A stretch of 38,509 nt of DNA from a bacterium (lineage in GTDB: Bacteria > Campylobacterota > Campylobacteria > Campylobacterales > Sulfurovaceae): positions 1 through 38,509 of the forward strand of contig JAHJJU010000116.1 of the NCBI GenBank assembly GCA_018822805.1, given 5' to 3'. A program made the translations under genes and the position numbers. The first letter of the stretch is position 1; every line of letters starts with the position of its first letter. The notes beneath the pieces are model-generated. The model was not told the origin of the DNA. It worked only from the letters and a program-made list of their open reading frames with translations, and searched no databases. Shown here piece by piece: positions 2,015-27,022 of the stretch.

Positions 2015-2039
2015 GAATATTCGTTAGTTTTGCAAGAAG
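1991..2039 (+). repeat. 14-bp perfect inverted repeat across the wzx stop codon
   Basis: CTTCTTGCAAAACT at 1991-2004 is exactly complementary to AGTTTTGCAAGAAG at 2026-2039, with a 21-nt loop that contains the flippase stop codon. No T-run follows, so it is not a classic intrinsic terminator. It may act as an mRNA processing, stability or attenuation hairpin between the flippase and asnB-like genes. Confidence 0.7.
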
Positions 2040-2065
2040 TCTAATCATTTATAAAAGGTGGTACC

Positions 2066-3961: not shown

Positions 3962-3962
3962 G

Positions 3963-4703
3963 ATGTTAAGTATTGCTTATAAAATTAAAGGTTTAACCTT
4001 TTGTGAAATGTGGTTTGCCTCAGAAATGCCTTTGGAAAGTGTGAGCATTTTAGGACTAAACGGTTATCGTGACAGTCGGATGGATGTGAATAACTTGTTT
4101 TTACTAAAAGAAGAGAAGTATACATTGGTTAATGATTTGCGTATGGAAAAAGAGGTAATTTTTTCTCTGTTTAAATCCAATGTTCGTAATGAGATTCGTA
4201 AATGTAAAAAGATAAAGGGCTTTACGTACCATTTTGATCAATCCAGTAAAGAGCAATTTCTACAATTTTATACCCAATTTTCCAATGCTAAAAATTTGGC
4301 ACCGATTAGCAAACGATCCATTGATAAGTATGGTGAAAATCTTTTTTATATTTCAGGCTATTTGGATGGTATATTGACGAATATGCAGGTTTATATAGTC
4401 GATCAGGAGAGTGGCGTGGTACGACTGCTTCATTCGATTAGCATACTTTATGATGTAGATGACACTTCGGTGCGTGCTAAAATAGGATGGATTAATCGTT
4501 ATTTGCATTGGCAAACAATGATGCATTTTAAAAGATTATCGTTTGAAACTTTTGATTGGGGAGGATACAACAATGGTGTCGATGCCGGTTTAGCAGGGAT
4601 TGATAAATTTAAAGCCTCTTTTGGAGGAGATAAAATTAAACTCTTTGATTACTATACCTATCCCTATTTTGTAATTAAAAAAATTCAGGAGAGACGCTTA
4701 TGA
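3963..4703 (+). CDS. FemAB/GNAT-fold aminoacyl- or acyltransferase-like protein
   Basis: A 246-residue protein starting at the ATG two bases after the asnB-like stop codon; an in-frame ATG at 3933 lies inside that gene and is unlikely to be used. The core resembles FemAB-type acyltransferases: VRNEIRKCKK, an acceptor region, then DWGGYN...GIDKFKASFGG near residues 205-230, the conserved end of the GNAT-like fold seen in peptidoglycan-bridge and polysaccharide-associated members. The family transfers amino acids or acyl groups from tRNA or CoA donors. In this locus it may decorate a polysaccharide repeat unit. The 3' end overlaps the next gene by four bases (ATGA), which suggests translational coupling. 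Confidence 0.75.
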   Translation: MLSIAYKIKGLTFCEMWFASEMPLESVSILGLNGYRDSRMDVNNLFLLKEEKYTLVNDLRMEKEVIFSLFKSNVRNEIRKCKKIKGFTYHFDQSSKEQFLQFYTQFSNAKNLAPISKRSIDKYGENLFYISGYLDGILTNMQVYIVDQESGVVRLLHSISILYDVDDTSVRAKIGWINRYLHWQTMMHFKRLSFETFDWGGYNNGVDAGLAGIDKFKASFGGDKIKLFDYYTYPYFVIKKIQERRL

Positions 4704-5794
4704 AACAACAACGTCTTGTGGGAATTATTCATGAACTGACCATGGGTGGGGCTGAACGCATGATGGTGAATATTTTGAACCATTTTTCATCACAAGGGGA
4801 TGAGGTTCATCTGATTATTGTTAAAAATATAGGAACCTTAAAAGCCTTACTCGATACCAATATTGTGGTCCATGATTTAGAGAGCTCATCGGTAAAAAAA
4901 AGTATACCAACGTGTTTACGAACGCTTTATACCATTAAACCCGATACTATTTTTACAGGTATTGGTCATGTGAACATTGCTTTGGCTCCATTTATCCCTT
5001 TAATGCGACGGTTGCTACCCAAAACACGATGGATTTCACGGGAGACCAATATTGTGAGTATGGAGAATCAAAGAGGGAAGTATCCTCGGCTCTTTAACTT
5101 TTTATATCGAAATGTGTATCACTATTATGATGTGATTATTGCCCAATCTGAAGATATGAGAAATGATTTAGCCTTGCATTATCCCAAAGCTGCGAAGAGA
5201 GCTTGTGTTATTAATAATCCTATAGATATTGAAAAAGTGGAAGCTTTGTCAAAAGAAGCAATCGATTTTACTTTTGATCCTAAAATGGTAAACTTGGTCA
5301 GTGTGGGAACGCTACGTAAGCGAAAACGTCAGGATTTGTTGTTGCAGACTTTAGTAAAATTGCCTCAAAACTACCATTTGGTTATTGTAGGTTCAGGAGA
5401 AGAGGAAGCATCATTAAAAGCATTAACCAGTAAGCTTGATCTGGAAAATCGTGTGGTTTTTGAAGGGCATAAAACCAATCCTTATCCCTATATGAAACAG
5501 GCTAATCTTTTCGTTTTAACTTCGGAACATGAAGGCTTTCCCAATGTTCTTTTGGAAGCAAACAGTTTGGGTACACCCGTGGTTGCTTTTGCGTGTCCCG
5601 GAGGGATTACAGAAATTATTGAAGAGGGGATTAATGGGGTTTCGGTTCCTAATGGTGATATTTCTGCTTTGGCTCAAACCATTCAAATGGTAGTGGATGA
5701 AACGTTTATCGAATCTAAAGTAGTAGAGTCTGTCAAACGACGTTACAGTTATGAAATTATTATGAAAAAATATGAAAAGATTTTTTATGCATAA
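4700..5794 (+). CDS. Glycosyltransferase family 4 protein
   Basis: A 364-residue GT-B fold glycosyltransferase. The N-terminal GT4 signature MGGAERMMV appears near residues 14-22. The C-terminal donor-binding half has VSVGTLRKRKRQD and the E-x7-E type motif in EHEGFPNVLLEA (around residues 275-286), which binds the nucleotide-sugar. These enzymes act on the cytoplasmic face of the inner membrane to lengthen lipid-linked oligosaccharides with retention of configuration. The start overlaps the FemAB-like gene by four bases and has an AGGAG ribosome site. Its end overlaps the next glycosyltransferase by 23 bases. Donor and acceptor cannot be assigned. Confidence 0.92.
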   Translation: MKQQRLVGIIHELTMGGAERMMVNILNHFSSQGDEVHLIIVKNIGTLKALLDTNIVVHDLESSSVKKSIPTCLRTLYTIKPDTIFTGIGHVNIALAPFIPLMRRLLPKTRWISRETNIVSMENQRGKYPRLFNFLYRNVYHYYDVIIAQSEDMRNDLALHYPKAAKRACVINNPIDIEKVEALSKEAIDFTFDPKMVNLVSVGTLRKRKRQDLLLQTLVKLPQNYHLVIVGSGEEEASLKALTSKLDLENRVVFEGHKTNPYPYMKQANLFVLTSEHEGFPNVLLEANSLGTPVVAFACPGGITEIIEEGINGVSVPNGDISALAQTIQMVVDETFIESKVVESVKRRYSYEIIMKKYEKIFYA

Positions 5795-6935
5795 AGAACC
5801 CTCAAAGGTTACATTTCTGATTAACTCTTTAGGTGAAGGTGGTGCCCAACGTGCCATAGCAACATTGGCAAAGCAACTGCTAAAAGAGGGAAAAAAGGTG
5901 ACGATACTCTCTTTGGCAAACAATGATTTTTATGAACTTCCTTCTGAAGTCAAGGTGGTCTATTTTACCAATAGTGTTAAAGACAGTATGCTGTTGATTC
6001 CCTATTATGCATGGAAGTTAAAACGTTATGTGAAAAAACATCATATTTCAAATGTTCAAAGTTACCTCTTTCGTGCCAACTATGTGAACCTTTTTTCACG
6101 ACTTCTTGGTGCAAAGCATCGCATACAGGTTGCCAATCGTTCGGTGGTTTCTCGATTTTTTAACGAGGGATTTTCTGGGAAAATTAATATTTTTCTGATT
6201 AAACGACTCTATCCTAAAGCTGATTTAATCATTCATCAATCAGAGCGAATGAAGTTGGATTTTCATACACATTTTAATAGTAATAATCCAGAGCAGGTGA
6301 TTTATAATTCTTTTGATGTTGAGGCTATTTTGTCACAAGCCCATCAAAAAGTTGAAGGATTTAGCTTTGATAGTAATAAACGTTATTTGGTTATCGTGGG
6401 ACGCTTGATTGCACTAAAACGTTTTCAAGATGTTATACGTGCAATGAAGCATTTGACTTTGGATGTGGAACTTTTAATATTGGGTGATGGAAAAGAACAG
6501 GAAAGCTTAGAATTACTGGCTAAAACGCTTGGTTTGGAGAAAAGGGTGCACTTTTTAGGGCAGGTGAAAAATCCATTTGCTTATATTAAACGCAGTGATA
6601 TCTTTATCTCCAGTTCCTCGGTTGAGGGTTTTCCTAATGTGTTGGTAGAAGCGATGTTGTGTAAAACAGTTGTCATCTCAAGTGACTGTATTAGTGGTCC
6701 ACGTGAAATTATGGCACCATCTACGGACAGTTCTAAACAGCTTTTAGACGGCATTGAAGTAGCTGATTATGGACTGTTGTATCCGGTAGGTTCAGTAGAA
6801 GATCTTAATAGGGCTATTCAACAGCTTTTAGAAGATACAGAGCAAAGAAGACGGTTGATTGCACAAGCATTTGAACGGGCACAAATGTTTTCAGTTGAGA
6901 ATATAAAGTCACAATATAAGAAACTATTTGATTAA
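5772..6935 (+). CDS. Glycosyltransferase family 4 protein
   Basis: A 387-residue GT-B fold enzyme, a paralogue of the preceding gene. It has GEGGAQRAIATLA near the N-terminus, VIVGRLIALKRFQD at the start of the donor domain, and SVEGFPNVLVEA with downstream SGPREIM as the nucleotide-sugar site. It overlaps the upstream gene by 23 bases; an ATG at 5787 is an alternative start that keeps the whole fold and shortens the overlap. It probably adds another sugar to the same lipid-linked repeat unit. The run of tightly packed genes from 44 ends here, before a 147-bp gap with a promoter candidate. Confidence 0.92.
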   Translation: MKRFFMHKEPSKVTFLINSLGEGGAQRAIATLAKQLLKEGKKVTILSLANNDFYELPSEVKVVYFTNSVKDSMLLIPYYAWKLKRYVKKHHISNVQSYLFRANYVNLFSRLLGAKHRIQVANRSVVSRFFNEGFSGKINIFLIKRLYPKADLIIHQSERMKLDFHTHFNSNNPEQVIYNSFDVEAILSQAHQKVEGFSFDSNKRYLVIVGRLIALKRFQDVIRAMKHLTLDVELLILGDGKEQESLELLAKTLGLEKRVHFLGQVKNPFAYIKRSDIFISSSSVEGFPNVLVEAMLCKTVVISSDCISGPREIMAPSTDSSKQLLDGIEVADYGLLYPVGSVEDLNRAIQQLLEDTEQRRRLIAQAFERAQMFSVENIKSQYKKLFD

Positions 6936-7032
6936 ATCTTTATTCTCTTTCTTATACTTTATTGAATATTTAAAATTTGTTTTTATTTGTTTAAAATGTT
7001 TAAAATTAAAGAAAAATTCAAAGAAAAATTGC

Positions 7033-7038
7033 TACAAT
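7033..7038 (+). promoter_or_regulatory. Candidate -10 element for the DWIGIYP-repeat gene
   Basis: TACAAT lies about 45 bases before the start codon in a very AT-rich gap (6936-7082) with repeated TTTAAAAT and AAAGAAAAATT runs but no good -35 box. Campylobacterota promoters often have a clear -10 element and only T-rich periodicity upstream. An AAGGAT ribosome site follows just before the ATG. Confidence 0.4.
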
Positions 7039-7082
7039 CATAATATATAACATATAGAAACAAAGAAAAATAAGGATTTTCC

Positions 7083-8573
7083 ATGTTAAGAAAAATAATT
7101 GTAATTGGGTGCATGTTATTAGGTACACTTCAGGCAGCAACCATAGCAACGGATAAAAGTGTTTATGGAAGTAATGAAAACGTTGTGGCAAACTTTACGG
7201 AGATGCTTGGTGATAGCCAAGATTGGATAGGAATTTACCCGGCAGGAAGTAGTAATGATTGGGGTAATGTCATTCAGTGGGAGTGGTCAGGAGGTGATGC
7301 AGCCGGATCAGTCAACTTTAACTCTCTACCTATTGGTAATTATGAAGCACGAGCATTTTATCAAAACTCATTTAATTTAGAAGCGGGTTATGCTTTTAGT
7401 GTTGAAGATAACGGAAATGGAAACGCTGTTGTTGTGATACCGGATCAAGAGAGTTATACTCCTAATGAAGTCATTGAAGTATTGTTTGAAAATATGTCAG
7501 GAAATAGCCAAGATTGGATAGGGATTTACCCGGCAGGAAGCAGTAATGATTGGGGTAATGTCGTCCAATGGAATTGGGCAGGTGGTGTGGTTAATGGCAG
7601 TATAAACTTCAGTGCCTTACCTATTGGAGCTTATGAGGCAAGAGCATTTTTTAATAACTCATTCAATTTAGAAGCGAAAAAGAGCTTTGTTGTAGAAGAA
7701 AAGGTCAATAACGATGGTGTGATATTGACAACCAATAAAACAACGTATTTACCAAATGAACTAATTGATGTAAACTTTGACAACATGTTGGGTGATCCGG
7801 AAGATTGGATAGGAATTTATCCGGCAGGTGCAAGTTATGAGTTTTCAAATGTCATTGAGTGGAGATGGACAGGTGGAACCGTACAAGGCGAACTTTCACT
7901 CAATGGTTTGCCGGCAGGAAGTTATGATGTAAGAGCATTTTTTGATAATTCCTTAACCAAAGAAGCAACGGTAACGATTAGCGTTCAAGATGTTCCTGTT
8001 ACCTCTACGGTGTATGAAAATGCTGAGAATGGATTAAATGCCAATTGGATTCGTGTTTCCGGTTCGTATACCCCACAACTTGCCAATCAAGGGTATCAAA
8101 GTAATAAAGCATTGGTATTGGTACCACAATGGGTGTCCAATACTTCTAATATAGCAGAATATTACTTACCACTTAACAGTGATGATTCTAAAAAAGTATT
8201 GGAAGTAGATGTAGGTGGTCTTTCTCAATATAAGTTACCCAACAATAGTCGATATGGTTACATGCCTCACTACAGTATAGGCTTAGATGTCCAAACGACC
8301 AATGGTCCACGTAGAATGATTTGGGATTCATTCTTTAATCATGGAAATGTGCCACCGACAATCAGTCCAAATGGGACACAGTTGAATTATCCTTCACCTG
8401 TTGAGCATGTACGAGGTTATTCATATGAGCCTGATATTACCAAATGGGAACACTTTAAAGTAAATATTGAACAACAGTTAAGAATTTTGGAACCAGATAA
8501 TAGAATTGTTAGTGTGACTAGATTTGTTGCTACAGGTGGATTTCTTGATAATTTAAAGCTCTCCAACTATTAG
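7083..8573 (+). CDS. Secreted protein with three tandem DWIGIYP beta-domains
   Basis: A 496-residue exported protein with a signal peptide (residues 1-18, likely cut after LQA). Three tandem modules of about 90 residues follow (around 19-107, 115-208 and 214-303). Each has a YxxNE start, DWIGIYPAG in the middle, W-x-W-x-GG, and a YxxRAFxxNS end. This layout suggests a beta-sandwich; the DW(I/V)G(I/L)(Y/F) core resembles the one in SKICH-type and some metallophosphatase-associated domains, but homology is not established. The remaining 185 or so residues form a different, probably beta-rich domain with many aromatic residues. Lying inside a polysaccharide locus, it could be a matrix or carbohydrate-binding protein. 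There is no PEP-CTERM or other sorting tail. Confidence 0.8.
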   Translation: MLRKIIVIGCMLLGTLQAATIATDKSVYGSNENVVANFTEMLGDSQDWIGIYPAGSSNDWGNVIQWEWSGGDAAGSVNFNSLPIGNYEARAFYQNSFNLEAGYAFSVEDNGNGNAVVVIPDQESYTPNEVIEVLFENMSGNSQDWIGIYPAGSSNDWGNVVQWNWAGGVVNGSINFSALPIGAYEARAFFNNSFNLEAKKSFVVEEKVNNDGVILTTNKTTYLPNELIDVNFDNMLGDPEDWIGIYPAGASYEFSNVIEWRWTGGTVQGELSLNGLPAGSYDVRAFFDNSLTKEATVTISVQDVPVTSTVYENAENGLNANWIRVSGSYTPQLANQGYQSNKALVLVPQWVSNTSNIAEYYLPLNSDDSKKVLEVDVGGLSQYKLPNNSRYGYMPHYSIGLDVQTTNGPRRMIWDSFFNHGNVPPTISPNGTQLNYPSPVEHVRGYSYEPDITKWEHFKVNIEQQLRILEPDNRIVSVTRFVATGGFLDNLKLSNY

Positions 8574-8575
8574 AC

Positions 8576-8609
8576 AAGAGAAGGGTTTCTCCTTCTCTTA
8601 TTTACTTTT
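8576..8609 (+). terminator. Intrinsic terminator after the repeat-protein gene
   Basis: A 9-bp perfect stem (AAGAGAAGG at 8576-8584, CCTTCTCTT at 8591-8599) with a 6-base loop is followed by a T-rich tract. It starts three bases after the stop codon. Confidence 0.8.
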
Positions 8610-8637
8610 TATCATTTAAATCCAAGGATATATACTA

Positions 8638-9666
8638 ATGTTGCTCTCTATACAATACTTGCGTGCCATAGCTGCATTTTTAGTGCTTTTAAGTCATACA
8701 GCATGGAAGAGTATACAAATAGACAACATGACACTTGCATGGTGGCATGATGCCGGAACATTTGGTGTGGATATATTTTTTATTATTTCTGGATTTATAA
8801 TGACACATACTTCGGTAAAACTTTATCAACAACCTCATGCGATTAGAACATTTTTGAAAAAACGTTTTATACGTATTGTCCCACTTTATTGGTTTTTTAC
8901 TTTGATGGCACTCAGTGCTTTTTTACTTTTTCCTCAACTTGTTAACAGTAGTGGAGGGAAGACAGAAATTTTTAAATCATTTTTTCTTTTACCTTTAAGA
9001 GCGAATGAAAATTATTTGGTTTCAGTTGGTTGGACATTGGAATTTGAATTTATTTTTTATTTTATTTTTGCAATTGGTCTACTCTTTACACAAGTTCGTG
9101 GAAATATATTTGTTTTTATACTATTAACATTCTCTTTTTTAGGCTCAATTATGTTGCCTGAGTTAATGATGAACCATATCTCTCATGCTTTTATCAATAA
9201 TCTATTTTTTGAGTTTGCTTTGGGAATGTTGCTTTATTATAGTATTCAAAATTTAAAACAGATATCTTTATTGTGTTCCATTACTTTAATTGTTATTGGA
9301 TTAGTTTGGTTTTATGCCACATTTTCCGGTTATGCACTTATGGGTGTACGTGCGATAGATAGTGGTATTCCTGCTTTTTTATTTTCATTTGGTCTAATAT
9401 CATTGGAGTATGTTTGGAAAAAGAAAGAATCGTCACTGTTCTTAAAGTTAGGAGACTCATCATACGCTCTCTACCTTTCTCATCCATTTGTGTTAGTGAT
9501 TGTCTTTTTTCTTTATCGGAAGCTTGAAAAATTACTGCCTCAAAATGAATTTTTAATGAATTTTTCAATGATTTTTGTTGCATTGGTCGTTGGATATGTA
9601 GTGCATATTTTTATTGAAAAAAAGTTAATCATATTGGCAAAGTTTCTATTTTATTCAAAGTATTGA
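8638..9666 (+). CDS. Acyltransferase family 3 (OafA/YrhL-like) membrane O-acyltransferase
   Basis: A 342-residue membrane protein with about ten predicted helices. The N-terminal YLRAIAAFLVLLSHTAW segment carries the catalytic-type His of the family, and GVDIFFIISGFIMTHT around residues 40-56 is the second conserved signature. Members transfer acetyl or other acyl groups onto sugars of surface polysaccharides or peptidoglycan. No periplasmic SGNH domain is fused. The start is supported by AAGGA about nine bases upstream. It lies after a terminator and before the chain-length gene, which fits O-acylation of the polymer made by this locus. Confidence 0.9.
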   Translation: MLLSIQYLRAIAAFLVLLSHTAWKSIQIDNMTLAWWHDAGTFGVDIFFIISGFIMTHTSVKLYQQPHAIRTFLKKRFIRIVPLYWFFTLMALSAFLLFPQLVNSSGGKTEIFKSFFLLPLRANENYLVSVGWTLEFEFIFYFIFAIGLLFTQVRGNIFVFILLTFSFLGSIMLPELMMNHISHAFINNLFFEFALGMLLYYSIQNLKQISLLCSITLIVIGLVWFYATFSGYALMGVRAIDSGIPAFLFSFGLISLEYVWKKKESSLFLKLGDSSYALYLSHPFVLVIVFFLYRKLEKLLPQNEFLMNFSMIFVALVVGYVVHIFIEKKLIILAKFLFYSKY

Positions 9667-9765
9667 TTATAAAAAATAGATACAAAAAAAATATAAGTAA
9701 AATTAAAGTTTTAAATTGTTACTATTTATGTTTAAAATAAACTTTAATATTGGTATATAAATAAT

Positions 9766-12051
9766 ATGAAATCTCTACCATTACACGCTCCTAAAGAGGA
9801 GAATTATATCATTGAACTTTTTAAAATAGTATTACCCTACAAATGGTTAATACTAAGTGTGGTAGTTCTCTCTTTGTTACTTGCGAAAGCATATCTCTAT
9901 TTTATTCCTCCTACTTATGAGTCCTATGCCCTAGTCAAAATTAAAAGTGATGACACAACACTGGGAGCACAAGATCTTTTACGGGATACCTTATTAAAAA
10001 CAAACAGTGCCGGCATTGATCAAGAGATATTGATACTACAGACCTATCAGATGAATCAAAAAGCATTAGAGAAAGTTAACTTTCAAATAAGATACTTTGT
10101 TGATGAGGGGTATAAAAATGTTGAAATTTATGAAGATGTACCCATTAGCATAGAGCGTATATCGGATATGAGTAGCCATATGGTGGGACAGTACATTACA
10201 CTTATACCAAAAGGAGATGGATTTATTTTAAAGTCTGAAGATAATCCGGTCTCAAGTACCTATAATTATAATAAAGAGGTGCAAACACCTTATTTTAGAG
10301 CTACTTTTAGAAAAAACAGAACATTTACTGAGCCTATTTACATTAAAGTGAATGGTGATCACCGTCATATTTATGAAGATACTATTAAAAAAAGACTCTC
10401 TGTGGGGAGAGTGGATTTAAATTCAAATCTTATCCATATTACATTTCATGACACCATACCTGCACGTGCAAACAACTATGTTAATGCACTCATTGAAGCG
10501 TATATTGAGCAAAGTATTAAAAAGAAAAACAGTATCAATGATAAGATTTTAAAATTTTTAGATGAGCAGTTGGAGGTGACCAAAGCTGAACTAGAAGTGT
10601 CGGAACGAGAACTTGAAAATTACCAGTCTAAAAACAAAAGTATTGATCCTTCGGTTAAGTCAACAAACTTTTTTGAAAAATTGAGTGATGTTGATTTACA
10701 ACTTTCAGAAATTACACTTAAAGAGAAATTGATTCATAATTTGACACAGTTTATTCGACATAATCGAAATCTTGATGCCATTGCTCCGACACTGTTGGAG
10801 TTTAATGATCAAAGTACCATTAAGCTTATAGACACTCTTAATGCCTTGCAAGCTGAAGAAGATGAACTTAAATTGGAGTTTACGGACAGTTATCCTCGAC
10901 TGATTCAAATACGTCAGAGAATGGCAAACATTAAAAATAAAGTTACTCTAAACATTAAAAATTTGGCTTCGGTTCTCACAGAAAAACGTATCAATCTTTT
11001 GAACCAAAAAAATAAGTACGAAGAGATTTTAACAGCATTGCCTAAAAAAGAGAAAAAACTGATTTCATTTAAACGTAATTATGAAGTTAAATCAAAAATG
11101 TACACCTATTTATTGGAGAAAAAATCAGAAAAAGAGTTGATTAAAGTGGCATCACTTGCTGATTATGAAGCTGTAGATCAAGCGTACACTTCATCTGTAC
11201 CGGTAAAACCTAAAAAAATAATTATTTTGGTGATTGCTTTTTTGATAGGTTTTGTTTTGGGGGTATTTTTTGCACTTCTACGTTTCCTGACGGTTGATAA
11301 GGTAAAAACACAAAAAGATGTTGAGCATTTAACCAAGTTGCCAATTTACGGAAATATCCCTTTATATAAAGAGAACCTCTTGTTGAATGTCTCTGTCGAA
11401 GAGGCATATCGTAAATTGGCAATGAATTTACAGTTTTTTAAAAAAGAGGATGAAGGAAATGTGGTATTGATCTCTTCTGTTGCTCAAGGAGAAGGGAAAA
11501 CGACGACGCTTGTGAATCTCAGTAAGATTTTTCAAGATACACGCTACAGATCCATTATTATCGATTTGGATATGCGTAACCCTTCCTTACATGAACATTT
11601 TGGATTAGAACAGCAGTACAGTGGCATTAGTACCTACTTAAACGGGCGTGACAATTTGGGTAATGTCATCTTTACAACCACCAACCCAAATTTGGACATT
11701 ATTACCTCTGGTCCTACGCCACCCAATCCTATCGAGTTGATGCTCTCACCTCGTTTAGAGGATCTATTGCCAACATTAAAAAGAAGGTATGATTATATTT
11801 TTATTGATACGGGTTCGTTTGATGTTGCCTTAGAGACCTTTTATTTGATGCAATACAGTGATATTAATTTGATTGTTTTTAGAGAAAACTTTAGTAAAAA
11901 ATCATCCATCACCGATCTTGAAAAGTTGATTCGAGAGAAGAATTTGAAAAATATAGGTTTGGTACTGAAAACCATGCCGAGTACAGTCGATAAGAACAAA
12001 CCCTTACCACAGCTTATTAAGGGAAAACGATCGGTTAAATTGTTGTCATAG
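9766..12051 (+). CDS. Wzc-like polysaccharide chain-length determinant / BY-kinase domain protein
   Basis: A 761-residue polysaccharide co-polymerase. Membrane helices at about 28-48 and 484-506 flank a long periplasmic region with coiled coil (roughly 250-460). The cytoplasmic half is a BY-kinase-like P-loop domain: Walker A GEGKTTTL near 575, Walker A' IIIDLDMRNP near 600, and a Walker B-like YDYIFIDTGS near 676 where most relatives have DTPP. The C-terminal tail has no tyrosine cluster, although autophosphorylation there is a hallmark of Wzc kinases. It likely controls export and length of the polymer. No clear Shine-Dalgarno site precedes the ATG, only AT-rich sequence. Confidence 0.9.
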   Translation: MKSLPLHAPKEENYIIELFKIVLPYKWLILSVVVLSLLLAKAYLYFIPPTYESYALVKIKSDDTTLGAQDLLRDTLLKTNSAGIDQEILILQTYQMNQKALEKVNFQIRYFVDEGYKNVEIYEDVPISIERISDMSSHMVGQYITLIPKGDGFILKSEDNPVSSTYNYNKEVQTPYFRATFRKNRTFTEPIYIKVNGDHRHIYEDTIKKRLSVGRVDLNSNLIHITFHDTIPARANNYVNALIEAYIEQSIKKKNSINDKILKFLDEQLEVTKAELEVSERELENYQSKNKSIDPSVKSTNFFEKLSDVDLQLSEITLKEKLIHNLTQFIRHNRNLDAIAPTLLEFNDQSTIKLIDTLNALQAEEDELKLEFTDSYPRLIQIRQRMANIKNKVTLNIKNLASVLTEKRINLLNQKNKYEEILTALPKKEKKLISFKRNYEVKSKMYTYLLEKKSEKELIKVASLADYEAVDQAYTSSVPVKPKKIIILVIAFLIGFVLGVFFALLRFLTVDKVKTQKDVEHLTKLPIYGNIPLYKENLLLNVSVEEAYRKLAMNLQFFKKEDEGNVVLISSVAQGEGKTTTLVNLSKIFQDTRYRSIIIDLDMRNPSLHEHFGLEQQYSGISTYLNGRDNLGNVIFTTTNPNLDIITSGPTPPNPIELMLSPRLEDLLPTLKRRYDYIFIDTGSFDVALETFYLMQYSDINLIVFRENFSKKSSITDLEKLIREKNLKNIGLVLKTMPSTVDKNKPLPQLIKGKRSVKLLS

Positions 12052-16624: not shown

Positions 16625-17968
16625 TTATTTAAACAGTCCAGCGTCAATGGCTCCATACCCTTTGGTAAGTACCTCCGGATTGGTCACTCCGTACATTTTA
16701 TAAATGGTTGCAGCCACAGCATACGGCTCAAAGGTATAAGAACTTTCTGTTGGTTGGGTATAGAGTCGGTTGTTTGACTCCGTTGGACTCAATTGGGTCT
16801 CGCCTACAATACCCACATGGTTGAAGTAATCTTTTCCTCCAAAAATATAGACATTTTGGTTGTTTCCATGATCCCAACCTTCTGAATCATTGAGGTTCAC
16901 ATTTCGTCCAAATTCAGCAAAAACTATAATGTTAACATTGTTTTTATTTTCTGCTTTGAGGTGGGCTAAAGCAACTTCAATAGACTCCATAAGATCAGTC
17001 ATTCTGCTACGATAAGCACTAACAGCATTAGAGTGATCATCCCAGCCACCTAAACCACCTCCACCTAATGAGATGACTTTGGTGTCTGGATTTCCTGACA
17101 GAACATTCACTGCAGCTTTTAGTTTTTTTGCAAAACTGGTATTGGGGTATTCAATACCTTCAGGAATTGTTTTCTCTTGTTGCTCTTGCATAAAGGTATC
17201 TAAGGTTGCTCGTTTATCAAAGGCATTTTGAATGTTCTGCTGTTGGTTAATGGATTTTGCCAATTCATCCATAGTCTCAGAGATAGCTGTCTCATTTGGT
17301 CTTGGATCTGTGCTCCATTCATCATTGGCATAGAGTTCATAGCTTAAACTTCTACTGTAAGGATTGGTTAAATTTTCATTCATGGCTGCCGGTCTTAAAA
17401 ATTTTTCGACATCAAATGGTCCTATTGAAAAAAGTCCTGATTCCCCTTCCATGGTTAAAAATGGTAAGACTGTTTCTGAATGAATAACGGAATTGTTTAC
17501 TAAAACCTTTCCTAAGGTTGAAAAAATACCTGCACCATAGGTAGGATCCTCTATGTTCATAAGTCCACGTTGATTTTCAGAGGTACAGTCTCCATGTGAT
17601 TTGGTAGGATTGTCTTTTCGGTAGCAGGTTCTAAAAATGTTCATATCTCCAGCAGCCAACATCCGTTCCATCGCTTCACCACCTGCTTGTTCCCAAAAGT
17701 TATTGGTGGTTTTAGTTACATAATAAAGATCATATTTGTTTTGACTTTTTTCTTGAATCTCATCTAGATTGGTCAGGTTTCCTCCAAGTTCTGAGGCTCC
17801 ACCATAGAGATAAATCATAATGGTTTGGGCAGCATTATTGTTGTAGACGGTACTGTTAAACTGTACTTGCGACAAATCAACCAGAGTAGAACCATACGCC
17901 AAATTTGGAAATAGGGCAGCCATGGTTACGAGACTAAATCCTTTTAAAAATACTCTTCTGTTCATCAT
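16625..17968 (-). CDS. DUF1501 family Tat-exported protein
   Basis: A 447-residue exported protein. The N-terminus NRRVFLKG followed by a hydrophobic stretch and AYG is a twin-arginine (Tat) signal, so it is probably exported folded. DUF1501 hallmarks are present: GGGLGGWDDHSN near residues 300-311 and VFAEFGRN...DSEGWDHGNNQNVYIFGG near 350-382. The family resembles the alkaline phosphatase/sulfatase fold in these His/Asp-rich segments, suggesting metal binding, but no activity is established. It starts immediately after the DUF1800-like stop codon (GAGGAGTAGATGATG), so the two are coupled. DUF1501 and DUF1800 genes are commonly found side by side in other bacteria. Confidence 0.88.
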   Translation of the reverse strand: MMNRRVFLKGFSLVTMAALFPNLAYGSTLVDLSQVQFNSTVYNNNAAQTIMIYLYGGASELGGNLTNLDEIQEKSQNKYDLYYVTKTTNNFWEQAGGEAMERMLAAGDMNIFRTCYRKDNPTKSHGDCTSENQRGLMNIEDPTYGAGIFSTLGKVLVNNSVIHSETVLPFLTMEGESGLFSIGPFDVEKFLRPAAMNENLTNPYSRSLSYELYANDEWSTDPRPNETAISETMDELAKSINQQQNIQNAFDKRATLDTFMQEQQEKTIPEGIEYPNTSFAKKLKAAVNVLSGNPDTKVISLGGGGLGGWDDHSNAVSAYRSRMTDLMESIEVALAHLKAENKNNVNIIVFAEFGRNVNLNDSEGWDHGNNQNVYIFGGKDYFNHVGIVGETQLSPTESNNRLYTQPTESSYTFEPYAVAATIYKMYGVTNPEVLTKGYGAIDAGLFK

Positions 17969-20305
17969 CTACTCCTCTATCGCTTGAAATGTATAGATCT
18001 CTGTTAATCGTGATAGGTACTCCATCACAATAATGGTTACACCTATTCGATCATTATAGGTACTCATGTCGGTATAGGTTCCTCGTGCATCATTAATGGC
18101 ATAGTTGGCTAAGGTGTCTCGTTCTTCATTGCTTGGTTCTCGAGAGACAACGGTTAGGAAAAGGTGATCGATTAATGTATTGACCGTTGTGGTATTTGGA
18201 ATTTCTCTATCAATGAGAGAGAGTTGCCATCCAAAATCCCAGTCATTTCCTACATCACTTTTTCGATCAATCATGATACGCTTGTGCATAAAATCATAAT
18301 AATAAGCAAAAGAGAGGGTATCGATTGGAATGTTTGTATCGCGACCCAATTTATAGCTCAAAGGACTTTGGTGCATGTTGTCCATATTTTCACGCATGTA
18401 GATAAAGAAGTTTCGTCCATCAAAAAAGTCAATTCGTTTTCCAATTCCAAAACTTGCCTCTTCGATACTTTTAATTTTTTCTGTATTGTATAAGAACTCT
18501 TTTGAGAAGATGATTTGTAGCAATATATCTTCAAATCGTGTAGGATTACTGTTGACAATGGTGTTGATAATTTCATCTTTTTTCACTGCCGTCACTTCTG
18601 AAAAATACATGTTGACCAATCGTGTCACAACGCCTGTGGTAAAGCCTGAACTTTTAACCAATTCACGGTAAAAGTCAAATCCTGTAGTGACAGTGGTTCC
18701 AAAAAGCTCTTGTGGTTGGTCATTTTGATTAAGACCAATAATCAGTTCATTGTCTCGTCGATCAAGGCTCCAGTTTTGAAGGGCAATACCTGCTGAAGGG
18801 ACATGTGAATCATTAAAATCCAGTAAGAAAATCTCTAACATTTCACGACCATTATCTTCGGGACTTCTAAAGCGTTTCCAGTTGTCATCACTGGTCATGT
18901 GCAGATAGGTAATCATTGGCATGGAGTAGTCATCATCCATAAGAAGAGCCAAACGGTTATAAACATTAGCGATGTCTGCATCTTGTACGGTTGCCAATTC
19001 ATTGGCCGGTGAAAACATAATGGTCTGTGTTAAGACATAGGCAGCCCATCGCTTAAGATAATGCTCACCTAAGTCCAGATTAAAGAGTCTGGCTAAGATT
19101 TTTTCTCTATGCTCATTATAATAATTATAATCTTTTTGTTCTTCAATGAATCGTTCGGTTGAGGTTAAATCACTGTTGGGTGTTTGTAGTTTGGTTTGTA
19201 TGGTTGAAATGAATGTCCCTGACGCCATTAAGGTATCAAGTTCTGTTTTGGACATACCATAAAATAGAAGAGCAAGTAATTTATTGGCAACAATACGTTG
19301 ATTTTCACTGCTTAAGGCATTAAACTCATTGTCCGTAATGGCATCAAGTCCATACTCATCATAGCTAAGTGGTGTTGCAAAAACTTTTAATCCTTGGAAA
19401 TGGGCATCATTGTTGCTGTTGTTCTCATTTACAGAAGAGGTATTAAATACAATATTTCCAAAGCTTATAGGTGAAGTGGTGTATTTGAGTAAGTTTGATT
19501 GAGCTACTTCTACCTCTTCACTGTTATAGACTCTGACGATAAACCCTGTATTTAAACTGTATAAACTGTTAAGTTTCAGTTGTGCACCCACATCAACACC
19601 ATTGATACTACCAACCAAAGCGATGGTACTTGGAGATGTTTCACTGCTTGGTACGGTATTGGCAAATACTTTAAGCGTGTAAGGAACAGAGTCGATATCT
19701 ATGGTTGCAACTACAGCTTCATTTTTATTATTGATAGCTATCTCATCAACATTAAAGAGAAACTCTAAATTGCTTGCTTCTGCAACTTTAATCCAGTATC
19801 CTTGTGTGATATTAAAATCATTAAAGTCATTGGCTGAAGTGAAGCCTTGGTCAACATAAGCTTTTTGATAGGTTTGACCTCCTCCTTGAACGACCAAGAG
19901 ATTATTAAGACCAATTTGTTCGATGAGTTCGCTAATGGTTAACGATTGAGGAACGGCAATAAGGTTCCACCCTGATGTCAATGAGATACGGTGTAGATTT
20001 TGATGTTGTCCAATGGGAGTATAGGTTAAGATTGCACTGTTATTTACTTTAATCCAATACCCTTTATTCTCTTCGAGTGCTGTAAAGTCATTTAAATCTA
20101 AATTTGCATCCACATAAGCCTTTTTATAAACTTTTTCAGGTCCTTGAACAACAAGTAAATTGTCCGAACCCAGTTGAGTTTTAAGTTCATCTAAGGTTAG
20201 ATTGGCATTGATTCCAATGAGGTTCCATCCTTGTTGAAGTTGGAGTTCATTTGCAAACAGAGAGTTGAGTAAGACAGTTAGTAAAAATAGAATTTTTTTC
20301 ATCAC
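17969..20305 (-). CDS. DUF1800-like secreted protein with two N-terminal GWNL modules
   Basis: A 778-residue exported protein with a Sec signal peptide (residues 1-18). Two tandem modules follow (about 20-97 and 104-183), each running GWNLI...DNLLVVQG...Y(K/Q)KAYVD...GYWIKV. A short beta-rich domain (about 190-280) resembles the C-terminal half of the lipoprotein encoded just upstream. The remaining 490 or so residues look DUF1800-like: PEDNGREMLEIFLLDF near 480 parallels that family's ENYARELLELHTLG motif, and FLTVVSREPSNEE near 730 fits its closing segment. Recognition is by motif and by the DUF1501 partner, so it is a divergent assignment. The function of DUF1800 is unknown. The modules are close copies of those in the GH9 protein at 21551-26986. 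Confidence 0.8.
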   Translation of the reverse strand: MMKKILFLLTVLLNSLFANELQLQQGWNLIGINANLTLDELKTQLGSDNLLVVQGPEKVYKKAYVDANLDLNDFTALEENKGYWIKVNNSAILTYTPIGQHQNLHRISLTSGWNLIAVPQSLTISELIEQIGLNNLLVVQGGGQTYQKAYVDQGFTSANDFNDFNITQGYWIKVAEASNLEFLFNVDEIAINNKNEAVVATIDIDSVPYTLKVFANTVPSSETSPSTIALVGSINGVDVGAQLKLNSLYSLNTGFIVRVYNSEEVEVAQSNLLKYTTSPISFGNIVFNTSSVNENNSNNDAHFQGLKVFATPLSYDEYGLDAITDNEFNALSSENQRIVANKLLALLFYGMSKTELDTLMASGTFISTIQTKLQTPNSDLTSTERFIEEQKDYNYYNEHREKILARLFNLDLGEHYLKRWAAYVLTQTIMFSPANELATVQDADIANVYNRLALLMDDDYSMPMITYLHMTSDDNWKRFRSPEDNGREMLEIFLLDFNDSHVPSAGIALQNWSLDRRDNELIIGLNQNDQPQELFGTTVTTGFDFYRELVKSSGFTTGVVTRLVNMYFSEVTAVKKDEIINTIVNSNPTRFEDILLQIIFSKEFLYNTEKIKSIEEASFGIGKRIDFFDGRNFFIYMRENMDNMHQSPLSYKLGRDTNIPIDTLSFAYYYDFMHKRIMIDRKSDVGNDWDFGWQLSLIDREIPNTTTVNTLIDHLFLTVVSREPSNEERDTLANYAINDARGTYTDMSTYNDRIGVTIIVMEYLSRLTEIYTFQAIEE

Positions 20306-21421: not shown

Positions 21422-21550
21422 GTGAAACCTTTTTTTGGATTATAGCACCATTCATATAAAAATTAATTTTTAAAAAGAAGCTTAATTTACACTTTTTTAG
21501 TCTAAAAATTTAAGTAACTACGGATAAAATAGAGGGATAAAGGAGAGGAG

Positions 21551-24500
21551 ATGAAACAGTTTATAACGATATTTTTAACCTTGATATGCACGGTGGTTGT
21601 ACATGCTGATACGTTACAACTCAAAAGTGGTTGGAACTTGGTAGGGGTCAATGCCAACTTAACCTTAGATGAAATCAAAAATCGGGTTGGTAGTGATAAT
21701 TTATTGGTGATTCAGGGAGAATATCGAACCTATCAAAAACGTTATGTGGAACAGAACCTTAGCTCTTTAAATGACTTTACAGCGTTTGAAGAGGGGGAAG
21801 GGTATTGGGTCAAGGTGGTTACGGATGTGAATTGTTCTTATACCCCCATAGCGTACAGCAATATGAAAATGGTCGCACTCAAGGAAGGGTGGAATCTGGT
21901 TAATCCTCTCTCTTCTTTGTTACTTGTTGAGATTTTGGCTCAAATTGGTAGTGACAATGTCGAGGTGATTCAAGGAGAGAAGCGAACCTATCAAAAACAT
22001 TACATGGAGCAAAATCTCTCTTTTTTAAATGATTTTGAAACCTTTGAAGAGCCAAAAGGGTATTGGATAAAGGTTCAAAACAGTAGTGACTTAACCTTTG
22101 AGTTTACGTCAACACACGTTTATGGCAGTGACTTAACAGCAGAGGAACACCAAGCCTTAAGTCGTAAAATCGTTCGGATGCAAAAGCCCAATGAAATCAA
22201 TATTGATGCCATTACGCCAACTATTGTTGAGATAGCATTGATTCCCAAATATGATGATAATGGATTTGAACGCTTACCGATTGATATTAATGCGACCCAT
22301 AATGTTTTAAATTTTTCTATTACTTCCGTAGAGGACAGCAACTATGCAACCAATACCCATCCAATAGAGAGTGGATTAAAAAGACGGCTGATGTATGCTC
22401 CTCTGGTTAAGAATGATTTGCGAATTTTGGAACGGGTCTATCTGCAGTTGCCGTATGCGTTAAAAGAGGGAAGCAGTTATAGTGTTGCTATTGATGATAA
22501 TGTAAGTGGTGAAAATCATGCCTTAGCGTTTACCTACAGTCAAGATAGAGTCTCATCCATTATTCATATTGACCCTGAGGGGTATCTACCTACCGATACC
22601 AAAAAAGCCTATATGGGTATGCAGTTGGGCAGTTTAGGTGAAGTGGTGGCGAACGATTTATCTTTTGTGGTGAAACGGGTCGATACCCGAGAGGTGGTCT
22701 ATTCAGGTGTGGGAACCATCGAGGTTTCAACAGGTTGGCGAGAAAATTTTAGCAATTTGGATACCCTCTATCAAAATGTGCTTGAGTTTGACTTTTCAGC
22801 GCTGATGCAAGAGGGAGAGTATATAATTGAAAGTCCTGTTGCCGGGATTTCTCAACCCTTTCCTATTAATGCCAATGCGTACCGAAAAATACTCAATACT
22901 TTAGCCCTTGGGGTTTACAATCAACGACGGGGTGAAGATATAACCATGCCCTACAGTCGGCATGAGCGATTGGCAACGATTGAGAACAATACGTATATCT
23001 ATAGCAGTGACGATTTAGACCCATTTGTAACCGATGACCCTGAATTTACAGGTATCAAATACCCCACCACCAATGAGGGGAAAAAGGTAACTTTTGAGTC
23101 AGCAGGTCACATGGATGCAGGGGATTACTCCCCTTATGCCTACAACAGTTCAGAGTTTACATGGACACTCTTGGCTGGGTTAGACCTGTTTGGTGATAAG
23201 TTGGGGCATGACAATTTGGGTGTGCCAGAGTCCAATGACAACATTCCCGACATCTACCAAGAGATGATGCTGGAGCTTAAATGGCTCATGGGGATGCAAG
23301 ATGATGATGGAGGTGTTTTTGGCATGAGTAAACCCAAAGGGTCAAGTTATCAAGGGAAAATGACAGGGCTTGACCCCAATATTCATCGATATTTAACCCC
23401 CAAAGATACCCCACATACAGCCAGTTTTACAGCCGTGATGGCACGAGGGGCTAGAAGTAAAATCATTCAAAAATACAATCCTGAACTCAGTAGTATTTTG
23501 AGAGAGAAAGCACTCAAAGCGTGGAGCTGGTTGGAGCAAAATGAAGGCTTTGATGGGTGGCACCACTATGGAGCACGAGAAGGTTCCGAAGATGATAGGG
23601 TTTGGGCTGCCATTGAACTTTACGCTTTGACAGGTGAGCAGAAGTATCATGACCATGTTGTGGCACAGCATCAACCTGAACTCCGAGACAATGGCGTGGC
23701 ATGGTTTAATCATGGGTACGGTTACACCAACCGAGCGATTGCAATATGGGAGAAAGAGGGAATTCCGTATCCTTTAGATGCCACCTTAAAAGAGCAATCG
23801 ATGAATCGATATCAAGCAATGTTGGAACACTATGTCGACTTAGCCAACACTACGCCCTATGATTTGATTTTAGAGGGGGCTGCCAAACGCTGGAATCAAT
23901 TGGGGTGGTTTTTTCCTCTCTATCCCTACTCAACCGATTTGATTATCGGACACTTTTTGTATGGGGAGGCAAAATATTTAGAGTTGGCCAAAGACCAAAT
24001 ACATTTCACTTTAGGAGCCAACCCTAATAACCAATCGTTTATTACAGGTATTGGGAACAAGCGACTGCATACACTGGTCGATGGGAAGAGCAGGTTTGAT
24101 AACCTTGACCAACCTGTTAATGGATTACCTGTCTCTCCTGTGGTGAGTGGGGCAAGTTGGTTAAACAGTTATGAGCGTAACTTGACCAACTTTACCTACC
24201 CACAAACCACCTATGATTTTAGTGATGGTCCAGCTTATGGTTTGCTTGATGAGAGTTATGATGGCTGGAATGTAAATGCTGAATTTACCATAGAGAAGTT
24301 GGGAGCGATGTTGGTGACCTTGGGCTATGTGACCGAAGTAGAAAACAAGGTTTATTCTTATCCTCAATTTGACATTGTTACAACCCCAATTGCCAATGGA
24401 AAGTTTCAAGCTTCTCTGAATTTTCATGGGAATCCAGTTGGTGGTAAAGTGGTTTGGTACGCCAATGGTGTGCCTGTTTCGGTTAATCCCAACTTTATTT

Positions 24501-26986
24501 TAGAGCAAGATTTTAGTGAACCAACCTATAAGTTGGGGGCTGAGTTTATCGACAGCAATGGACGACGATGGTTTGATGAGACCCTCATCAATACCCGAGA
24601 CTACAGCAATACAAACATTCCTTTGGAACCTTTTACGAGTTCATCTTACAGCAATATTTGGCACTTTGATACCAATCTGAGTAGTGATATGGGTATTGAT
24701 TTGAGCTTTGAGGGGAATGCAAAGCTGGATGATACCAATCTCTACTGGATGCAAAATGCACGTGGAAAAGCACTGCGAGTAGAGAATTATGGAGATGGGG
24801 TAAAAGGCTCTATTGTGATGGAGGATATTCTTGAAGGTCATAGCTTAGCAGAGCTTGATGAGGTGAGCATTGAAGCCCTGATGTATCCTGAAAAGTTTTT
24901 AGCACGAGGTGAGCAGACAGCCGAGATGATAAAGTTTGAACAGTCTTGGGGTGCCCAACTGCAACTGTTACGATTTACATGGGATTATGATACCCAAACC
25001 CGATTGGCACGACACGTTTTGGGTGAAGACAAAAAGATAAGTGAAGCCCTAAGAGAGCATGAGTGGCACCACATCAAAATGAAAATAGACCGATATAAGG
25101 TCTATCTCTATATTGATGGAAAAGAGATTTATAATCAAGATAGGGTAGAAGCCAATTTAAAAACACTTTTTGACTCCCGAACGGTCTCTATTGCTTTGGG
25201 GGATTTTATGGGCTGGATTGATGAGTTTAAAATCTCTGTAACGGTTGGTGGGGTCAATCAAGACAGTGACCGTGATGGATTGCCTGACAGTTGGGAGAGG
25301 GCTTATGGTTTTAATGTGTTGAGTGCCGATGATGCCCTGCAAGACAGTGATGGAGATGGGTATAGCAATCTGCAAGAGTATCAGAGGTTAAGCAACCCTA
25401 CCGTTCAAGACAAATATTTAGAACCGATAGGAACCAATCTACGCTCTGTGGTTGATTGGACAACACAGCTACCCTTTGTGGACTACTTTAAATTTGCACG
25501 AACATGGATTACCCAGTGTGAAGTGGGAAGTGATGCAAACTGTACATGGAGCAACAGTTGGGATACCCAAGAAGAGGAGGGTTTAGACTTAGATGAGAAC
25601 GGTTGGGTAAAATCGTTGCCAATTCCAGAAGATGGCAGACGCTACTCACGTGTTTCAACGGTGTGGGACATGCCCGACACTTTGCCAAAAGGGCGATATA
25701 TTGTACTCTATGAGGGTGAAGGGGTTATCAACTATCGCTTAGGGGCTACAAAAGTAGTAGAGGCATCCACACATGGTAGAGATGTGGTTGATGTCGATAT
25801 TGGCAATGGGTTGATACAGCTCCAAATTGTTTCAACCGACCCCAATAAAACAGGGGAGTATCTACGTAATATTCGTATGGTTAAAGAGGAAGATGAGAGC
25901 AACACGGCTAAATTTAACCGTCAATTCTTAGAGCTTATTAAGCCATTTAGTGTACTACGCTTTATGGATTGGCAACGCAGCAACAACTCAAATTTATCGA
26001 CATGGCAAGATAGAGCTTACCAAGATAATGCTACTTATGCAACCAATAAGGGGGTTCCTGTTGAAATTATGGTGGAACTCTCTAACACTTTACAGCGACC
26101 ACCTTGGTTTAATATCCCTCATCAAGCCGATGATACGTTTATACGTGAATTTGCAAAAACAGTCAAAAAGTATTTAGACCGAAATATTCCCATCTATATC
26201 GAGTACTCCAATGAGGTGTGGAATGGACTGTTCGAGCAGAGCAGTTGGGTCGAGCGTCAAGCAGAGGCGTTGTGGAGTGATTCTACCGAGAGTGGATTTA
26301 CTAAAAAAATTAATTGGTACGGAATGCGAACAGCACAGATGTGTGCAATATTTAAAGCAGAGTTTAGCGATCAACCTAAGAGGGTTACTTGTGTTTTAGC
26401 CTCACAGGCTACGAACAGCTGGACAGCATCACAAGCGTTATTGTGTCCATTGGTACTAGATAAAAACTGTAGTGAAAATATTGATGCCTTAGCCATTGCC
26501 CCCTATTTTGGAAACTACTTAGGCAGTCCTTCAAACCAAAGTGAAGTAGAAAATTGGACAAGTGAGCCAGATAATGGCTTAGAGATGCTCTTTACTGAAT
26601 TAACAGAGGGTGGTATTTTAAGCAATTCAAAAGAGGGTGGAGCGTTAGGTGAATCTTTGACGTGGATGAGTCAGAATAAAGCCGTTGCGAATGAGTATAA
26701 TTTGAGTTTAATCGCTTATGAGGGTGGGCAACATTTGGTAGGAATAGGTGGTGTTGAGAATGTTGAGCCAATTACCAATCTGTTTATATCAGCCAATCGA
26801 GATGCACGAATGGGAAGACTCTATATCGACTATCTGAACGGATGGAAACAACAAGGAGGAGGATTGTTTATGAATTTTTCGGATATTGCTTCTCCTAGTA
26901 AATATGGAAGTTGGGGTGCATTGGAGTATGTGGATCAAAATGGGTCTACTAAATATGATGCGTTGATGGAGTATATGGGGAATTAG
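21551..26986 (+). CDS. Giant secreted GH9 glycoside hydrolase with a second TIM-barrel-like glycosidase domain
   Basis: An 1811-residue exported protein. Order: signal peptide (1-19); two GWNL...GYW(I/V)KV modules (about 21-98, 107-184); a linker domain; a CelD_N-type Ig domain (about 334-438, DPEGYLP start); a GH9 (alpha/alpha)6 domain to about 925 with base Asp in DAGDY (Asp522, Asp525) and candidate proton donor Glu911 (NAEFTIEK, where NE is usual); an Ig/PKD-like stretch; a LamG-like domain (about 1030-1230); calcium-loop repeats DSDRDGLPD and DSDGDGYSN (about 1237-1280); then a 500-residue C-terminal region. That last part has YIEYSNEVWNG (Glu1555) and AYEGGQH (Glu1724), the spacing expected of acid/base and nucleophile in clan GH-A barrels. 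It probably cuts beta-glucans such as cellulose. The ribosome site AAAGGAGAGGAG is strong. Confidence 0.88.
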   Translation: MKQFITIFLTLICTVVVHADTLQLKSGWNLVGVNANLTLDEIKNRVGSDNLLVIQGEYRTYQKRYVEQNLSSLNDFTAFEEGEGYWVKVVTDVNCSYTPIAYSNMKMVALKEGWNLVNPLSSLLLVEILAQIGSDNVEVIQGEKRTYQKHYMEQNLSFLNDFETFEEPKGYWIKVQNSSDLTFEFTSTHVYGSDLTAEEHQALSRKIVRMQKPNEINIDAITPTIVEIALIPKYDDNGFERLPIDINATHNVLNFSITSVEDSNYATNTHPIESGLKRRLMYAPLVKNDLRILERVYLQLPYALKEGSSYSVAIDDNVSGENHALAFTYSQDRVSSIIHIDPEGYLPTDTKKAYMGMQLGSLGEVVANDLSFVVKRVDTREVVYSGVGTIEVSTGWRENFSNLDTLYQNVLEFDFSALMQEGEYIIESPVAGISQPFPINANAYRKILNTLALGVYNQRRGEDITMPYSRHERLATIENNTYIYSSDDLDPFVTDDPEFTGIKYPTTNEGKKVTFESAGHMDAGDYSPYAYNSSEFTWTLLAGLDLFGDKLGHDNLGVPESNDNIPDIYQEMMLELKWLMGMQDDDGGVFGMSKPKGSSYQGKMTGLDPNIHRYLTPKDTPHTASFTAVMARGARSKIIQKYNPELSSILREKALKAWSWLEQNEGFDGWHHYGAREGSEDDRVWAAIELYALTGEQKYHDHVVAQHQPELRDNGVAWFNHGYGYTNRAIAIWEKEGIPYPLDATLKEQSMNRYQAMLEHYVDLANTTPYDLILEGAAKRWNQLGWFFPLYPYSTDLIIGHFLYGEAKYLELAKDQIHFTLGANPNNQSFITGIGNKRLHTLVDGKSRFDNLDQPVNGLPVSPVVSGASWLNSYERNLTNFTYPQTTYDFSDGPAYGLLDESYDGWNVNAEFTIEKLGAMLVTLGYVTEVENKVYSYPQFDIVTTPIANGKFQASLNFHGNPVGGKVVWYANGVPVSVNPNFILEQDFSEPTYKLGAEFIDSNGRRWFDETLINTRDYSNTNIPLEPFTSSSYSNIWHFDTNLSSDMGIDLSFEGNAKLDDTNLYWMQNARGKALRVENYGDGVKGSIVMEDILEGHSLAELDEVSIEALMYPEKFLARGEQTAEMIKFEQSWGAQLQLLRFTWDYDTQTRLARHVLGEDKKISEALREHEWHHIKMKIDRYKVYLYIDGKEIYNQDRVEANLKTLFDSRTVSIALGDFMGWIDEFKISVTVGGVNQDSDRDGLPDSWERAYGFNVLSADDALQDSDGDGYSNLQEYQRLSNPTVQDKYLEPIGTNLRSVVDWTTQLPFVDYFKFARTWITQCEVGSDANCTWSNSWDTQEEEGLDLDENGWVKSLPIPEDGRRYSRVSTVWDMPDTLPKGRYIVLYEGEGVINYRLGATKVVEASTHGRDVVDVDIGNGLIQLQIVSTDPNKTGEYLRNIRMVKEEDESNTAKFNRQFLELIKPFSVLRFMDWQRSNNSNLSTWQDRAYQDNATYATNKGVPVEIMVELSNTLQRPPWFNIPHQADDTFIREFAKTVKKYLDRNIPIYIEYSNEVWNGLFEQSSWVERQAEALWSDSTESGFTKKINWYGMRTAQMCAIFKAEFSDQPKRVTCVLASQATNSWTASQALLCPLVLDKNCSENIDALAIAPYFGNYLGSPSNQSEVENWTSEPDNGLEMLFTELTEGGILSNSKEGGALGESLTWMSQNKAVANEYNLSLIAYEGGQHLVGIGGVENVEPITNLFISANRDARMGRLYIDYLNGWKQQGGGLFMNFSDIASPSKYGSWGALEYVDQNGSTKYDALMEYMGN

Positions 26987-26999
26987 AAAGTGAGGAAGA

Positions 27000-27022
27000 G
27001 GGTAGGTGATGGCGACCTACCC
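27000..27022. terminator. Bidirectional terminator-like hairpin between GH9 gene and nifU
   Basis: GGGTAGGT at 27000-27007 pairs with ACCTACCC at 27015-27022 around a 7-base loop, between convergent genes. No T-run is obvious on either side. The stem also carries a GTAGG sequence like the palindromic repeats elsewhere in the window. Confidence 0.6.

Follow-up and report, generated by a model that had tools for sequence, protein, structure and literature searches.

This locus raises the question of what a probable chemolithoautotroph of the family Sulfurovaceae would cut with a secreted protein of 1811 amino acids that joins a glycoside hydrolase family 9 (GH9) domain to a second domain of catalytic type. 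The window (the whole stretch of DNA analysed, 38,509 nucleotides) is contig 117 of a genome that comprises 121 contigs and 2.79 Mb and is 99.8% complete. The open reading frame occupies positions 21551-26986 of the plus strand, the same limits that had been given in a preliminary description made from the sequence. Since the flanking genes on both sides lie on the opposite strand, the gene is transcribed alone. A strong ribosome-binding sequence, AAAGGAGAGGAG (21539-21550, plus strand), was read directly from the sequence immediately 5′ of the ATG, and a terminator-like stem-loop, recognised only by its match to the consensus, is located 3′ of the gene (27000-27022, plus strand). A promoter scan returned sites no more numerous than those found in shuffled sequence.

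The open reading frame is not a chance one, since a full-length copy exists in another genome and dN/dS between the two is low. This ortholog, 74% identical, belongs to a different genome of the same genus (G009) and stands at an unrelated locus: no other genes around it are common to the window locus, and no polysaccharide cluster could be recognised around it by eye. Both halves of the protein are under purifying selection: relative to the ortholog, dN/dS is ca. 0.15 over the whole protein, 0.11 over the GH9 part and 0.16 over the C-terminal domain, and none of the catalytic residues has changed.

The encoded protein begins with a signal peptide, read by eye from the translation (residues 1-19, MKQFITIFLTLICTVVVHA, 21551-21607; this and all features below are on the plus strand), followed by two GWNL...GYW(V/I)K repeats (residues 20-188, 21608-22114), an Ig-like region with no Pfam match (189-330, 22115-22540), CelD_N, the Ig-like domain of GH9 enzymes (336-429, 22556-22837; Pfam PF02927, E 2e-7, above the cut-off), a divergent GH9 catalytic domain (444 to ~925, 22880-24325), an Ig-like (936-1060) and LamG-like (1061-1232) region (24356-25246), calcium-binding TSP3-like loops (1233-1290, 25247-25420) and the C-terminal catalytic-type domain (1291-1811, 25421-26983). 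Of the linker modules proposed earlier, the calcium loops held up (repeats at residues 1241-1289 match two NCBIfam models, E 3e-6 and 6e-6), whereas the LamG assignment remains below the Pfam cut-off (Laminin_G_3, E 0.0015), as does TSP3, and the GWNL repeats had been overlooked. The latter form a surface-protein module that has no Pfam model, copies of which (42-52% identical) occur in other proteins of the same and related genomes. In the window itself, a DUF1501 protein adjoins a 778-amino-acid protein whose N-terminus is of the same GWNL kind and whose remaining sequence matches nothing in Pfam (16625-20305, minus strand). A Pfam scan of the 1811 residues found no recognised cellulose-binding module.

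Residues 444-843 match the GH9 model well above its threshold (Pfam PF00759, E 6e-33, 115 bits against a curated cut-off of 27.7), and solved GH9 structures match the domain as well, the nearest being 3X17, the xyloglucanase BoGH9A and CelD. With these enzymes, which carry an N-terminal Ig domain (CelD 1CLC, 3X17, BoGH9A 6DHT), the window protein shares the order of CelD_N and GH9, the DAGD base pair and the catalytic Glu. It differs from them in its low identity (~25-30%), in the loss of the PHHR motif, in an extra segment before the catalytic Glu and in the tail of Ig, LamG and calcium-loop modules. A further member of this arrangement is encoded on a contig of a viral collection (L224, 2566-5736): its 1056 residues comprise Ig, CelD_N, GH9, Ig and LamG, without the C-terminal barrel, and are co-linear with residues ~201-1228 of the window protein, the Ig-like region upstream of CelD_N and the conserved Ig-LamG region included. 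A scan of viral contigs for GH9 with a two-row query gave no matches.

The structure model of the GH9 half, for which an (alpha/alpha)6 fold would be expected, was built on a four-row alignment and reached a pLDDT of only 46, and the description of its active site therefore rests on alignment. Asp522 and Asp525 of the DAGD motif (23114-23125) align with the two base residues of the GH9 enzymes that were compared and are invariant in the divergent subgroup. The catalytic Glu, which in GH9 opens the last helix, was placed, by alignment alone, at Glu911 (24281-24283, in the motif NAEFTI). This residue (motif EFT) is invariant in 8/8 members of a wider alignment made up of the L224 protein and subgroup members from genomes that carry the C-terminal family. 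Alignment with classical GH9s alone would shift the acid to Glu901, a candidate that we rejected because other members of the subgroup have Arg or Ala there, whereas Glu911 never varies. The three residues had been numbered correctly in the preliminary description. A His/Arg substrate-binding motif, PHxR, is a signature of GH9. It is present (as PHxR or PHHR) in the aligned classical enzymes, is replaced here by KRLHTLVDGKS, and is gone from the whole divergent subgroup, so that the specificity of this subgroup probably differs from that of classical cellulases. The GH9 half would be an inverting, endo-type hydrolase with Asp522/Asp525 as base and Glu911 as acid, acting on a backbone of beta-glucan type. 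The GH9 xanthanases (PspXan9, 6FHJ/6FHN, and MiXen), which cut exopolysaccharide backbones, are likewise multi-modular GH9 proteins; the profile match to 6FHJ is weak (E 2e-23), and they are not the closest match of the window domain.

Residues 1291-1811 were modelled with high confidence (pLDDT 95.8) as a (beta/alpha)8 barrel. The best structural matches of the model in the PDB belong mostly to clan GH-A (GH79, GH53, GH26 and GH5), at ~10% identity and TM scores of at most 0.56. Clan GH-A enzymes are recognised by an Asn-Glu acid/base after strand 4 and a nucleophile Glu after strand 7. In the window protein, with strand order taken from the model, Asn1554-Glu1555 follows strand 4 (Glu1555 at 26213-26215, in YSNEVWN), Glu1724 comes after strand 7 (26720-26722, in YEGGQ), and none of these residues varies across 45 homologues drawn from many phyla. 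The barrel and the invariant Glu pair, the latter already suspected in the preliminary description, thus predict a domain of clan GH-A type. It resembles GH5, GH26, GH53 and GH79 in the barrel and in both Glu positions, and differs from them by a beta-sandwich inserted between strands 1 and 2. No sequence match to the domain was found in Pfam, NCBIfam, PHROGs or among solved structures, and none of the profiles for GH families 5, 26, 39, 53 and 79 in Pfam and NCBIfam gave a significant match; a literature search with the SNEVWN motif found nothing. Judged by sequence against these four collections (CAZy and dbCAN lie outside the comparison), the family is uncatalogued. The C-terminal half would be a retaining hydrolase with Glu1555 as acid/base and Glu1724 as nucleophile. 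The gene product, as had been proposed, is a real and conserved secreted hydrolase with two catalytic-type domains, a GH9 of a divergent subgroup and a member of an uncatalogued family of clan GH-A type, each with a predicted activity.

Relatives of the C-terminal domain are encoded at at least 583 loci of species-representative genomes, which belong to Cyanobacteria, Myxococcota-like bacteria, Planctomycetota, Verrucomicrobiota, Armatimonadota, Pseudomonadota and other phyla. Homologues were also found in 25 plasmid records and in 96 stretches of viral contigs, some of which adjoin terminase, portal and head genes. On the metagenomic phage contigs (loci L132-L211, e.g. L171, L174 and L178), the barrel sometimes carries an N-terminal extension of 200-330 amino acids. 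These proteins are candidate phage depolymerases. The domain was not found in isolated phage records, and a structure search against viral proteins returned distant barrels only.

Most homologues are stand-alone secreted proteins of ~520-620 amino acids. The 80 best homologues of the C-terminal domain yielded no fusion with GH9, the longer ones that were scanned being without GH9, and to our knowledge no such fusion has been known before. A parallel two-catalytic fusion is encoded on a Paracoccus marcusii plasmid (L046, 3459-10364): this secreted protein of 2302 amino acids contains the same C-terminal family joined to another glycoside hydrolase, with GH16 in place of GH9, and has RTX repeats.

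Within the phylum, the C-terminal domain is rare: among 397 genomes it was found in the window genome and G346 only, to which G009 has to be added. It was therefore probably acquired. In a tree of the domain, the window and G009 sequences group with Myxococcota-like sequences and G346 is placed elsewhere, which suggests separate acquisitions. The module seems to have entered from another phylum and to have been fused within this genus. The GC content of the gene (0.421) is the highest within the set of window genes compared, which fits a transfer but does not prove it.

The GH9 half is less foreign to the lineage. It had been suggested that GH9 and multi-catalytic cellulases do not belong in such bacteria, which is at most partly true, since cellulase-type enzymes do occur in the lineage: GH9 passes the Pfam cut-off in 13 of 100 genomes of relatives, among which it is scattered, and the window genome encodes three further GH9 proteins (four in all) and one GH5. 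One of the three is a CBM2-GH9 protein. Another, on contig C14 (L007, 7359-11357, minus strand), is a second two-catalytic enzyme, whose 1332 residues comprise CBM4_9, GH5, GWNL-type repeats, CelD_N and GH9. The third, on contig C25 (L005, 6076-14511, plus strand), is a 1916-amino-acid fusion of GWNL repeats, GH9, CBM2, fn3, cytochrome c and planctomycete-type PSD, an odd union of a cellulase with electron-transfer modules. After it come genes for a DUF1552 protein and a flavocytochrome c sulfide dehydrogenase, so that a GWNL protein next to a gene of DUF1501/DUF1552 type is common to C25 and window positions 16625-20305. In the related genome G008, an open reading frame of similar size and start (L038, 164-8000) also has a DUF1552-like gene after it. 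A literature search on polysaccharide degradation in Campylobacterota found nothing.

The genes that surround the C-terminal homologues bear on the substrate. Of 13 annotated plasmid loci, 8 have two or more polysaccharide-synthesis genes within 8 kb; for control stretches taken from these plasmids the figure is 1 of 6. The sample is small, its members are not independent, and plasmids are rich in polysaccharide clusters. In genomes, glycosyltransferases and sugar-nucleotide enzymes rank first among the neighbour families. Exopolysaccharide operons commonly include hydrolases (PMC9894940). Many of the barrel homologues resemble PslG, PelA and PgaB in being secreted and encoded together with polysaccharide synthesis; those enzymes belong to other families, and the window gene, unlike them, stands alone outside a cluster. 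The window does contain a polysaccharide-synthesis cluster (743-12051), with genes for a flippase, an asparagine synthase-like protein, two GT4s, an acyltransferase and a Wzz-type chain-length/kinase protein. It lies upstream of the hydrolase gene, ~9.5 kb and several unrelated genes away. Many homologues are located inside such clusters, but the window gene is not, and none could be recognised around its G009 copy.

We propose that the protein is a secreted, surface-associated, two-site hydrolase that would act on an exopolysaccharide of beta-glucan type rather than serve for feeding on crystalline cellulose, a proposal for which we see about equal reason to believe and to doubt. The GWNL, LamG and calcium-loop modules may anchor the enzyme to the surface or to its substrate, and both halves, the barrel as a member of an exopolysaccharide-linked family, would together cut a heteropolymeric exopolysaccharide, namely the matrix made by the cell itself or by its neighbours. 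Searches of the 99.8%-complete genome covered GH1, GH3 and GH94 as beta-glucosidase families and found none of them; BcsB was not found either, which makes self-made cellulose an unlikely substrate. ATP-citrate lyase was found and fits the chemolithotrophic life suggested in the preliminary description. GH9 xanthanases, moreover, act on the beta-1,4-glucan backbone of an exopolysaccharide (PMC10881899). These observations, with the xanthanases and operon hydrolases as precedents, make exopolysaccharide the likelier substrate, which we hold with moderate confidence. Further support comes from the neighbourhoods of the homologues, which favour for the C-terminal half the exopolysaccharide target suggested earlier, from the cluster at 743-12051 and from the lack of a recognised cellulose-binding module. 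Against this stand the ~9.5 kb gap, the G009 copy with no recognisable cluster, and the CBM2 or CBM4_9 modules on the other GH9s of the genome, which leave room for a cellulose diet.

Such a diet is the alternative that survives best, although we consider it rather unlikely. The protein would then be one of a set of enzymes that degrade cellulose and hemicellulose of plant or algal detritus, with the barrel cutting a hemicellulose side polymer. The four GH9 proteins, the GH5 and their binding modules would fit this, as would a xyloglucanase among the closest solved GH9 relatives; Sulfurovum, a plausible relative, was dominant in coastal rice-straw enrichments (PMC10469889). However, the genome has none of the three families for cello-oligosaccharides, the protein itself is without a recognised cellulose-binding module, and the C-terminal family is tied to exopolysaccharide loci, not to plant-polymer loci. 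It is less probable still that the target is exclusively the exopolysaccharide of competitors or neighbours, e.g., phototroph slime, and not the producer's own polymer: the rarity of the C-terminal domain in the phylum and the homologues beside phage terminase and portal genes fit an attack on foreign coats, but the genes for many of the cellular homologues lie close to those with which the carrier makes its own polysaccharide. That one half alone is active, with GH9 as a binding or scaffold domain or with a non-catalytic barrel, is the least probable, since the replaced PHHR motif and the low pLDDT of the GH9 model are outweighed by invariant GH9 catalytic residues, a dN/dS that is lowest in this half, and a C-terminal Glu pair kept in all 45 homologues.

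Returning to the exopolysaccharide proposal, we consider the wider C-terminal family its more interesting part and one that merits characterisation, given that its genomic loci and viral-contig stretches amount to a barrel family outside Pfam, NCBIfam, PHROGs and the sequences of solved structures. The invariant Glu pair and the siting near polysaccharide-synthesis genes make its members testable as matrix-processing or phage-depolymerase enzymes, and GH9 as a natural fusion partner hints at a substrate of beta-glucan type. Tentatively, and with the balance tilting slightly against us, we suggest that residues 1291-1811 represent a large, phylum-spanning and undescribed clan GH-A family for microbial exopolysaccharides, which would serve producers in processing their matrix and phages as a depolymerase, and which is fused here to a GH9 of altered specificity as a bifunctional cutter. 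The window fusion would then represent matrix-cutting enzymes acquired by a probable chemolithoautotroph.
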